Part shown: positions 14,233 through 32,076 of the stretch, piece by piece
How positions within the stretch are numbered: position 1 is the first letter of the stretch
Layout of the letters: each line of letters opens with the position of its first letter
DNA from: Acidobacteriota bacterium
GTDB lineage: Bacteria; Acidobacteriota; Vicinamibacteria; Vicinamibacterales; UBA2999
NCBI GenBank assembly: GCA_947482665.1
Contig: CANKJK010000002.1
Location: 124,001-188,000 of the forward strand
Direction of reading: 5' to 3'
Length of the DNA: 64,000 nucleotides
Notes under the pieces: model-generated
The model's input: only the letters and a program-made list of their open reading frames with translations
The model's database searches: none
Told to the model about the DNA's origin: nothing
Translations under genes and position numbers: made by a program

Positions 14233-16647
14233 TTACGGCTGCGTGAGTTTCAGCAGCAGGTCCTGCGCGCGCTCAAACTGGGGTGCCAGTTCGAGCGCGG
14301 CGAGCACTTCCTTCCGGGCCTCGGCCTTCTGGCCATTCGCGAAGTACGCCTCCGCCAGAGAGGTCCGCGCCGCGGCCTTGTCGACGGTGCCTCCCGCCAA
14401 CACGGACCGAAAGGCGCGGATGGCCACCGGCGCGTCCCCACCCTTCAGCGCATAGTTGCCAAGCGAGGCCTGCGCATCCAGATCGAACGGGTCGATGCTG
14501 GCCACGCGCCCGTACGCGGCGGCCGCTTTCTTCAGGTCACCCTTCGTCGCGACGAGCCCCGCCCAGGTCCGCATGGATTCAATGTCGTTGGCGTCGACCG
14601 CGGAGAGCGCCTCAAGCGCCGCGAGGGCGCGGTCCGGCTGCTTCTGCGCCACGGCCAGCTTCGCCAACTTGACGTTGGGGCTCTCCTTCCCCGTCGCCAT
14701 GGGCGCAAGCGCCGCCGCCCGCTCATAGATGCCCATGGCCGCGGTCGCATTGCCGGCCTGCTCGTAGGCCTCTCCGAGGCGCATGAGCACCGGCAGGCTC
14801 CCAGGGTGCGCCTTCTCCAGCGCCGCAAGCGCCTCCACGCCCGTGGCCTTGGCCAGGGCCTCGGGGGCCTCCATCGCCTTGCGCAGTGGACCAAACTCGC
14901 GCGCGACAAACGCGTCGAAACCCGTCTGAAGTTCGTCCATCGTGACGCCGAGCACCTGCTTCAGGGCCGCGTCGGTGTCGGCACCCGACGCATAGGCTGC
15001 CACCAGCCCCCGGAGCTTCTCCTGCCCGTAGGTCTCGTGGATATGCGCCACGACTTGCGAGGCCTGAAAGTAGGCCAGCGAGATTGTCTTGGGATCGCTG
15101 AAGCCGGCATTCAGATTCTTGAGCGTCATCACCGTACCGTGATTCAGGGCGACGGCAAACTCCAGTTCCTGCTCGCGACCCCACTCATGGCGCGCCCGCT
15201 TCTCCTCGAATACGGAGATGCCCTCGGTGAGCCATCGGGGAATGCGCTGGCCGGAGAGCTGGACGGTGATGACGTGCGCGAGCTCGTGCCAGAGTGTGGC
15301 ACCCCAGTTGAACTCACCGGGCGGACGCGCCTTCGGCGAGTCCAGTGTCACCACGCGTCCGAAGCACGCGCCGAGCGCGCCCAGGAATCCCGGCAGGCCA
15401 ATCGTCCGCACCGCGAAGTCGTCGTGCCGCGGAAACATCTCCACCAGCAGCGGCCCCTTCGGTGTGAAGCGCCAGGCGCGCGACAGCGTGGCCATGGCCT
15501 CTTTCGCCAGCGGCAGCGCGTGTTCGCGCATCACGGCCACTTCGTCCGCGTGGAAGCGGAAGATGAAGTCACCTTCGGTCACCGTCACGAACTTGTCCAG
15601 CGTATCGAGCAGCGCCAGCGAATTGAACGTGACGACGTCAAACGGATCGAGCGTGAATGCCGTGTCGAGCGCCTGACGCGCGCCGGGCTCGTCGCCGGTG
15701 CGGAGCAGGTGCGTACCCAGCATCGCGTGGGCGCGCGCCGACGCCGGGTCGAGTGCCAGGGCGCGGCGCGTCAGCGCAACAGCTTCCTCGAACCGATACG
15801 CCCGTGCCGCGTGTTCACCCGCAATGCGGTAGATGTCGGCGTAGCGCGGATTGAGCGCGAGCGCTCCGGCCACGGCCTGCTCGAACTCGGCACTCCGGTC
15901 GTCCACATAGAGGAGTGCGGCATCGAGCGCCCGCGCCTCGAGGCTGTTTGGATTGGCGGCGAGTGCCCGGGCCACCAGCGCGCGCGCGTCAGGACGCTTC
16001 GCGTCATCGAGTTCCAGCCCGGCCAGAAGGAGCAGGGCCTCCACGTGCCCGGGCTGCTCTGTGAGGATCGCGGCGATGGCCTTGCGTGCGTCTGGTGGAT
16101 TCGTCTCAGCGAGGACGCGCGCCATGCCGAGCCGGGCGGGCAGATAGGCAGCGTTGGCCGCCAGCGCGGCCTTGAAGGACTTCTCGGCCTCGGCCTGACT
16201 GTACTTCTCAAGAAAGAGCTCACCCCAGCCCGTATTCACCTGCACGTCGGCGGGCGCAAGACGGCTGGCATCGCGATAGAGATCGTTGGCCGCCTGGAAA
16301 CGCCCGAGTGCGCGGGCCGCCCGCGCCGCCCGCGCAAGCCGCAGTGGCGTTTCGCCAGTGGCGTTGCGATCGACGACCACTCCGAGCGTCCGTTCGGCTT
16401 CGCGCCGGCCCAGATAGCGCTGCAGCAGACCCAGTTCGAGAGCTGCATCGCCTGCAGGGTCGCGCTCGGCCGGTCCGGCCAGACCCTTCAGGGCCTCGGG
16501 ATAGCGCCCGGCGGCAATATCAGCGCGAGCCGCGGTGAGCCCGGAGTCGACTGCGGGTGTCTGGGCAGCCGCGCCCAGCGCGAGCAGCAGCCCGCACGCG
16601 CACGCCAGCGCAGCCTGTCGTCCCCACGAACGCCCTGGACGCCTCAC
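14233..16647 (-). CDS. TPR-repeat protein with peptidase-MA-like metallopeptidase domain
   Basis: An 804 aa exported protein (signal peptide within residues 8-30, ending AAAQ). Many tetratricopeptide repeats cover the first ~390 and the last ~250 residues. Between them sits a gluzincin-type domain: TLWHELAHVITVQLSGQRIP (HExxH zinc site) followed by WLTEGISVFEEKRARHEW, whose glutamate is the probable third ligand. This layout matches periplasmic peptidase-MA-family proteins; the target is unknown. An intact metal site suggests activity. No partner gene is evident; upstream lies an unrelated operon. Confidence 0.82.
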   Translation of the reverse strand: MRRPGRSWGRQAALACACGLLLALGAAAQTPAVDSGLTAARADIAAGRYPEALKGLAGPAERDPAGDAALELGLLQRYLGRREAERTLGVVVDRNATGETPLRLARAARAARALGRFQAANDLYRDASRLAPADVQVNTGWGELFLEKYSQAEAEKSFKAALAANAAYLPARLGMARVLAETNPPDARKAIAAILTEQPGHVEALLLLAGLELDDAKRPDARALVARALAANPNSLEARALDAALLYVDDRSAEFEQAVAGALALNPRYADIYRIAGEHAARAYRFEEAVALTRRALALDPASARAHAMLGTHLLRTGDEPGARQALDTAFTLDPFDVVTFNSLALLDTLDKFVTVTEGDFIFRFHADEVAVMREHALPLAKEAMATLSRAWRFTPKGPLLVEMFPRHDDFAVRTIGLPGFLGALGACFGRVVTLDSPKARPPGEFNWGATLWHELAHVITVQLSGQRIPRWLTEGISVFEEKRARHEWGREQELEFAVALNHGTVMTLKNLNAGFSDPKTISLAYFQASQVVAHIHETYGQEKLRGLVAAYASGADTDAALKQVLGVTMDELQTGFDAFVAREFGPLRKAMEAPEALAKATGVEALAALEKAHPGSLPVLMRLGEAYEQAGNATAAMGIYERAAALAPMATGKESPNVKLAKLAVAQKQPDRALAALEALSAVDANDIESMRTWAGLVATKGDLKKAAAAYGRVASIDPFDLDAQASLGNYALKGGDAPVAIRAFRSVLAGGTVDKAAARTSLAEAYFANGQKAEARKEVLAALELAPQFERAQDLLLKLTQP

Positions 16648-31072: not shown

Positions 31073-31405
31073 CTACGTCGTCTGTCCGCCGTCACCGGCG
31101 GCAGGCGGCGGCACCGGCGCCCCCTCGCCCGCCCGCTTCATCGCCGACACCACGCGCTCGCCGCACTCCTCCCAGAGTTGCCGGCCCTGGTCCATGAGCG
31201 CGCTGGCCGCCTGGCGGCCCCGTTCACCACACTCGTCGGCGAGCGTACGACCCTGCTGGCCCAGGCTTGCGCGTGTCTCGCGCCCGGCCGCCGGGGCGAA
31301 GATCACTCCCGCTGCGGCCCCCACGCACGCGCCAACGGCAAACCACAACACTGCGGACCCAGCCGAGCCTGCGCCTTCGTTACCTCGCCTGTCGTGATCG
31401 CCCAT
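31073..31405 (-). CDS. YtxH-domain small membrane protein
   Basis: A 110 aa protein with one N-terminal transmembrane helix (AVLWFAVGACVGAAAGVIFAP) ending in the YtxH hallmark APAAGRETRASL, and a helical cytoplasmic tail (DECGERGRQAASALMDQ, RQLWEECGERVVSAM). YtxH-type proteins accumulate under general stress; the molecular role is unknown. A sigma-54-type promoter on the minus strand lies about 57-72 bp upstream (31477-31462). GAGG is 6 nt before the ATG. It is divergent from the small membrane-protein gene at 31648. Confidence 0.75.
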   Translation of the reverse strand: MGDHDRRGNEGAGSAGSAVLWFAVGACVGAAAGVIFAPAAGRETRASLGQQGRTLADECGERGRQAASALMDQGRQLWEECGERVVSAMKRAGEGAPVPPPAAGDGGQTT

Positions 31406-31461
31406 GGCTGTCCTCGCTTTCTGCAGCGGACGCGCGTATCCGCGTCTCACTGATCTGACGC

Positions 31462-31477
31462 AGCACGCCGTGTGCCA
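31462..31477 (-). promoter_or_regulatory. sigma-54-type promoter, minus strand (YtxH gene)
   Basis: Read on the minus strand: TGGCAC-ACGGC-GTGCT. The -24 GG and -12 GC are separated by 10 nt as sigma-54 requires; one base differs from the TTGC consensus of the -12 element. Transcription would start near 31451, leaving a leader of about 46 nt with GAGG before the ATG at 31405. Confidence 0.55.
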
Positions 31478-31528
31478 AAGACCAGGCGATGCCGCGCCGT
31501 ATCGCCGCGGATCGTTCAGCGGAGGCGC

Positions 31529-31576
31529 TGGGATTTTCCCACGCCGTTGGGAGTTCACACACGGCCGGGGCTCCCA
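31529..31576. promoter_or_regulatory. cluster of TGGGA half-sites, candidate enhancer-binding sites
   Basis: Palindrome TGGGATTTTCCCA (31529-31541) is followed by an inverted pair TGGGAG (31548-31553) and CTCCCA (31571-31576). The cluster lies between two divergent sigma-54-type promoters, 52 bp from the minus-strand and about 17-60 bp from the plus-strand element. That is the position expected of an upstream activator site. Confidence 0.4.
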
Positions 31577-31592
31577 CCAATGGCTGCGCCCG

Positions 31593-31608
31593 TGGCACAC
31601 CTGTTGCT
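31593..31608 (+). promoter_or_regulatory. sigma-54-type promoter, plus strand
   Basis: TGGCAC-ACCTG-TTGCT is a full match to the TGGCAC-N5-TTGCW consensus. The predicted start of transcription is about 31619. GGAAGGAG follows at 31633-31640, with ATG at 31648. Confidence 0.7.
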
Positions 31609-31647
31609 CAGTCTGAGACAGGGCGATTCGTTGGAAGGAGCGTTCCC

Positions 31648-32076
31648 ATGGCGACCTTGGACAGCACGCACCTCGTTCTCTGGATCGTAGCGGGCACGTC
31701 CATCGCACACCTGCTGCTGCTGATTGCAGGCGCCGTCTGGGCGCACCGCCAGTTCGCGCGCTTCTCCCGGGAGATGTCCCGCCTTGAGGCCACCCATTGG
31801 CAGGGACTCATGGCACGCACCGACGCCATGCTGGCAGACCTCCACACCATCGCTGGTCGCGCAGACCGCGTCGGACGCGAGGTCGAGCGTGTGGCGGTCA
31901 CCGTGCAGGACATGCTCAGCACCGTCAGCTGGGAAGTCGACCGCGCCACCAGGGGTGCCCGGGTTGCCATGGATCTCGTGGAAGGGGTCTATCGCCAGGC
32001 GTCCAGCTTCGGGGCCGGCCTTCGCGCGGGAATCCAGGAACTCCTGTCTCGCCGACAGGACCCGCACGGGTCCTGA
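31648..32076 (+). CDS. small membrane protein with coiled-coil-like tail (DUF948-like)
   Basis: A 142 aa protein with one transmembrane helix (LVLWIVAGTSIAHLLLLIAG) and a long helical cytoplasmic region (RFSREMSRLEATHWQGLMAR, GREVERVAVTVQDMLSTVSW). This layout resembles DUF948-type stress proteins, but I cannot confirm the family. Its promoter is a consensus sigma-54 site. GGAAGGAG is 7 nt before the start. An in-frame longer ORF from 31489 would begin upstream of the promoter, so the start at 31648 is preferred. Confidence 0.65.
   Translation: MATLDSTHLVLWIVAGTSIAHLLLLIAGAVWAHRQFARFSREMSRLEATHWQGLMARTDAMLADLHTIAGRADRVGREVERVAVTVQDMLSTVSWEVDRATRGARVAMDLVEGVYRQASSFGAGLRAGIQELLSRRQDPHGS

Follow-up and report, generated by a model that had tools for sequence, protein, structure and literature searches.

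We are rather confident that two small, divergently transcribed genes in the 64-kb stretch of DNA analysed here (the window) are read from two divergent sigma-54 promoters flanking a probable shared activator site, and that both genes belong to a sigma-54 stress set. The computations established directly that the sites exist, that they are conserved in front of orthologous genes and specific both to stress genes and to Acidobacteriota, and that rpoN is intact.

The intergenic region and its two sigma-54 sites

The minus-strand gene (31073–31405) encodes a YtxH family protein of 110 aa (PF12732, E = 1.2e-10; 42.1 bits, above the curated cut-off of 37.5). The plus-strand gene, an ORF with a ribosome site (31648–32076), encodes a small YtxG-like membrane protein of 142 aa, with a hydrophobic segment at its N-terminus. 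This second protein has no Pfam match of its own and is named DUF948-like only because it is homologous to relatives matching PF06103 at about 1e-4 (22–23 bits), below the curated cut-off of 37.2. Both leaders contain a ribosome site, as had been described. That of the plus strand, GGAAGGAG (31633–31640), is separated by 7 nt from the ATG at 31648; that of the minus strand, GAGGA (31411–31415), by 5 nt from the ATG at 31405.

The predicted sigma-54 promoter (−24/−12) of the DUF948-like gene, TGGCACACCTGTTGCT (31593–31608, plus strand), is a full match to the consensus TGGCACN5TTGCW, with a predicted start at about 31619. That of ytxH, TGGCACACGGCGTGCT (31462–31477, minus strand), has one mismatch to the same consensus and a predicted start at about 31451. 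The GG and GC dinucleotides, 10 bp apart, are present in both sites, and the mismatch of the minus site (a G for T at the first base of the −12 element) lies outside them. The distance to the ATG is 55 bp for the plus site and 72 bp for the minus site. With a hand-set weight matrix based on the generally known sigma-54 consensus, the plus site (18.4 bits) and the minus site (14.2 bits) ranked first and second in the 64-kb window, confirming the pair reported in the earlier note at 31593–31608 (+) and 31477–31462 (−) as the two best sigma-54 sites of the window. A matrix derived only from the KGG promoters of relatives also placed the plus site first in the 64 kb (19.05 bits), and the minus site was not among its eight best for the window. 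Another candidate, TGGCACCCCAGTTGAA at 15297–15312, was rejected as a promoter: it lies antisense within a long minus-strand TPR-like gene and was taken as a chance occurrence.

That a loose consensus was matched by chance in G+C-rich DNA is an exceedingly improbable explanation of this pair. The bare pattern TGGCAYN6TGCT is no commoner across the genome than its reversed form (19 and 35 copies, respectively), so the motif alone proves little and the case rests on conservation. Nevertheless, when the 242 bp between the genes (31406–31647) were put through 20,000 dinucleotide shuffles, both scores never occurred together, and the stronger score arose on either strand in only three; the sites are also conserved in other genera and are backed by the gene-set and taxon controls described below. 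As far as sequence can do so, the shuffles and the conservation rule out a chance match, and both sites very probably function as sigma-54 promoters. Three copies of the full consensus TGGCACN5TTGCW are present in the 3.5-Mb genome: the plus site, a site before a KGG stress gene and a site just before an infA-like frame.

Conservation in relatives and in other stress genes

The relatives compared were genomes of the same family and the same order; the set searched held no relative of the same genus. The earlier note had given loss of the TGGCAC/TTGC bases in orthologous loci as the outcome that would refute it; the bases are kept in front of the ytxH and DUF948-like genes of relatives. The form TGGCAC-N5-GTGCT is retained upstream of orthologous ytxH genes in genera g4, g12 and g21. 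It bears on the reading in which only the plus site works, the minus site being a chance match and ytxH being read from another promoter. The minus site does have a mismatch, a lower score and a place outside the eight best sites of the KGG-only matrix, but its whole arrangement, deviating G included, recurs as TGGCACGCGGCGTGCT 75 bp before the ATG of ytxH in G011 (another genus), as TGGCACAGACCGTGCT 62 bp before the ATG in G003, and as TGGCACGAACCGTGCT before one ytxH of G035, which makes this reading decidedly unlikely.

Sites are likewise kept 38–74 bp upstream of DUF948-like genes in genera g12, g4 and g10 (genomes G011, G003 and G030), for example TGGCATGTGCGTTGCT, 66 bp before the ATG in G011. 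The G011 cluster holds five stress-type genes with one site each, including lmo0937, csbD and a small membrane gene (15.5–17 bits); among them are the divergent pairs DUF948|csbD and ytxH|lmo0937. The lmo0937 and DUF948-like genes of G003 also carry sites, and in G030 the genes DUF948, ytxH and lmo0937 lie in a row behind the single site TGGCATGGTCCATGCT. In most other relatives, DUF948 is found within a ytxH-DUF948-ytxH arrangement, and TGGCAC-N5-TTG(A/G/C) lies about 320–440 bp upstream of DUF948, before the first ytxH. Across the loci L012–L027, which have this arrangement, the position of TGGCAC-N5-TTG is strongly conserved and the −12 element reads TTGAA, TTGAT or TTGGA, with A or G for C. 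RpoN control of both window genes, as proposed in the earlier note, is strongly supported by this conservation in other genera of the family.

We compared upstream sites of at least 12 bits with those found by the same matrix read backwards, for several gene families. Sites were found for 13 of 22 DUF948 relatives (reversed matrix, 0 of 22), 8 of 50 stress-type ytxH genes (reversed, 0), 8 of 30 lmo0937 genes (reversed, 0) and 7 of 30 CsbD genes (reversed, 1). Ferritin-like stress genes also carry such sites. A Pfam-based YtxH set, consisting of the 30 best matches, was discarded as a test: it displayed no enrichment because it was composed mostly of a different paralogue group.

In the window's own genome (G000), the full-consensus site TGGCACTCCGGTTGCA (G000:C3:135420-135435; L157 around 9435, minus strand) is found 70 bp upstream of a KGG gene (PF10685), so KGG genes could serve as an independent test that had not been used in building the idea. 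With the window's genome left out, 26 of 30 relatives had a KGG site of at least 12 bits, versus 0 of 30 with the reversed matrix; the rpsT control in the same genome set likewise gave 0 of 30 (Fisher P of about 8e-13 for KGG versus rpsT; relatedness inflates these counts and those of the taxon test, which are not independent events, and P values are a guide only). Neither the genome's own csbD gene (7.3 bits) nor its best lmo0937 homologue (3.0 bits) has a good site, so the sigma-54 stress set is not uniform. In the same genome, TGGCACGCCATTCGCT was observed 32 bp upstream of a universal stress protein gene (G000:C1; L153 at 2422, minus strand). The families with the promoter here (KGG, CsbD, lmo0937, ytxH and DUF948) are known as general-stress genes elsewhere.

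The taxon test was performed on 80 KGG loci from named genomes, with a threshold of at least 14 bits. Sites were present in 13 of 17 Acidobacteriota loci, several of them labelled gp6 or Vicinamibacterales, versus 0 of 63 others (Cyanobacteria 0/24, Betaproteobacteria 0/22, Vampirovibrio 0/4 and the remainder 0/13). Many of the Acidobacteriota KGG sites read TGGCAC-N4-GTTGCA or similar. To our knowledge, Cyanobacteria lack rpoN.

The base composition of the −12 element raises the question of whether TGGCAC-N5-TTG is read by another regulator, or by a sigma factor with a sigma-54-like specificity. In many relatives TTGC is replaced by TTGAA or TTGGA, the DUF948 operons have TTGAA, TTGAT or TTGGA, and, of 37 KGG promoters, 4 have A and 7 have T where the −12 GC has its C. 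However, C remains the commonest base at this position (26/37), the GG, A, T and G positions show little or no variation in these 37 promoters, and the motif is missing from the cyanobacterial counterparts of these genes. We consider such a reader very improbable, and control by sigma-54 is the reading retained here: ytxH and the DUF948-like gene are very probably members of a sigma-54 stress set that this Acidobacteriota lineage has conserved.

The candidate activator site and the sigma-54 machinery of the genome

The paired TGGGA half-sites noted previously at 31529–31576 are present. The first two together make a perfect 5-3-5 palindrome, TGGGATTTTCCCA (31529–31541), a candidate upstream activating site. 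Its centre (31535.0) is the exact midpoint between the 5′ ends of the two promoters, 84 bp from each predicted start (31619 and 31451), which is a usual spacing for an activator site. No other exact TGGGAN3TCCCA occurs in the window or, barring copies of the same locus, in a set of 187 loci. Palindromes of this kind are expected by chance at about two per 115 bp, so only its uniqueness and its centring are notable. Two further half-sites, TTGGGAG (31547–31553) and CTCCCA (31571–31576), read directly from the sequence, could constitute a weaker activator site (31547–31576). Neither the palindrome nor the TGGGA sites were conserved in the relatives fetched. It is plausible, judging from its sequence and position, that TGGGATTTTCCCA is the activator site for both promoters.

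A search upstream of about 50 related promoters revealed no activator motif common to them. At three loci (L289, L291 and L294), a dyad resembling GGAAATGA...TCATTTCC was seen about 80 bp upstream of the KGG promoter, and is possibly the activator site of that KGG subgroup. The sharing of such dyads by these three promoters suggests that activator sites may be lineage-specific.

The genome contains one rpoN gene, with an intact RpoN box (ARRTIAKYRE) and a match to Sigma54_DBD at 9.4e-66, and about 20 full sigma-54 activator domains of enhancer-binding proteins (bEBPs). In G034, two paralogous clusters (L149 and L150) encode an NtrC-type response regulator with a GAFTGA loop, together with kinase genes, and adjoin csbD and, in one cluster, lmo0937; they are a natural place in which to seek the stress activator. 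G003 and G011 have mutually similar bEBPs, unlike those of G034, about 10–14 kb from ytxH. To look for the activator in the window's genome, its proteins were compared with the bEBPs that accompany stress clusters in these three genomes. The best candidate (G000:C14:34480-35661) is 45% identical to the bEBP of G003; no stress genes were recognised beside its gene, so it is only a lead.

The two promoters could both be real and yet respond to different activators, with no co-induction, the divergent layout being an accident of rearrangement. The exact divergent DUF948|ytxH layout was found only in the window's genome, which has the numerous bEBPs mentioned above, and the lack of a common motif upstream of the related promoters points the same way. 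By contrast, the two genes follow one another behind one site in G030, they lie within about 1 kb of each other in G011, many relatives have the ytxH-DUF948-ytxH arrangement, and the palindrome of the window is exactly midway between the promoters. On balance, we regard separate activators as unlikely, and shared activation as the preferred reading.

Under shared activation, a stress-activated enhancer-binding protein would bind near 31529–31576 and loop to the sigma-54 polymerase waiting at both promoters. Transcription would then start leftward into ytxH and rightward into the DUF948-like gene, and the two small membrane proteins would be members of a sigma-54 stress set together with the KGG, CsbD, lmo0937-type and ferritin-like genes. 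In this scheme, promoter activity, the function of the palindrome, the signal for induction and the co-induction of the two genes are inferred.

The genome has 13 genes with a sigma-70 region-2 domain. The five of these that were classified comprise one RpoD, two FliA-type, one ECF and a second large sigma-70, and none of these five passed an RpoS or SigB cut-off. The second large, RpoD-like factor (L372; G000:C2:14895-15104) scores below every NCBIfam equivalog cut-off; it might serve in stationary phase and compete for control of the stress genes.

Comparison with known stress regulons

In Bacillus subtilis, ytxGHJ is a same-strand operon, and YtxG is what we take to be its DUF948 member. 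The SigB regulon of this species includes ytxG, ytxH and ytxJ, plus csbD and dps (PMC7824861). The earlier note knew of no description of the pairing, but DUF948–YtxH is already known as the ytxG–ytxH sigma-B stress pair of Bacillus (PMC7824861), so the difference here lies in the sigma factor, not in the pair; it is the sigma factor that looks new. The same two protein families are encoded together, and treated as stress genes, in both cases, whereas ytxGHJ has a SigB promoter and the window has divergent predicted sigma-54 promoters, which would need an ATP-driven activator.

Other members of the set show a similar correspondence. The expression of lmo0937 falls in Listeria sigB mutants (PMC7690807), and the KGG proteins YciG, YmdF and SEN1538 are RpoS-regulated in Salmonella and Escherichia coli (PMC7161692). 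These enterobacterial proteins belong to the same KGG family, the sigma-54 promoters of which are the clearest in this lineage, but their control is by sigma-S there and predicted to be by sigma-54 here. The earlier note had suggested envelope stress; the co-regulated KGG, CsbD, lmo0937 and ferritin-like genes point instead to general or stationary-phase stress rather than to envelope stress in particular.

Control of stress functions by sigma-54 has precedents. The phage-shock response is controlled by PspF and RpoN. Some envelope and stress operons of Desulfovibrio vulgaris are under sigma-54 (PMC4641369). The phage-shock and D. vulgaris systems resemble the one proposed here in their stress-induced functions, their use of sigma-54 and their dedicated activators, but, as far as the stress-related passages of that paper show, their targets and activators differ from those of the window (PMC4641369). 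RpoN affects stress resistance in Campylobacter jejuni, a bacterium in which dedicated stress sigma factors are missing (PMC3196706); C. jejuni differs in phylum, in the genes concerned and in having only three sigma factors. A comparative link of sigma-54 to envelope functions, as controller of the bacterial exterior, has also been drawn (PMC3162934); the text of that paper mentions neither Acidobacteria nor CsbD. In the non-subscription literature, we found no paper joining Acidobacteria, sigma-54 and general stress, and the literature searched yielded no description of the sigma factor for the general stress response of Acidobacteriota.

These results suggest that this lineage runs with sigma-54 a stress response that other bacteria run by sigma-B or sigma-S. 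We propose more tentatively, as somewhat short of an even chance, that the master switch of the general stress response in Vicinamibacterales and related Acidobacteriota is sigma-54, acting with one or a few enhancer-binding proteins dedicated to it. If so, sigma-54 would replace sigma-B, sigma-S or EcfG in this role, and the response would be gated by an ATP-driven activator and not by release of a sigma factor. The presence under sigma-54 of genes that are under sigma-B in Bacillus and sigma-S in enterobacteria would amount to the rewiring of a basic response in a phylum that abounds in soils, and would bring another type of control, in which closed complexes wait for their activator. The outcome is also a concrete, testable set of promoters.
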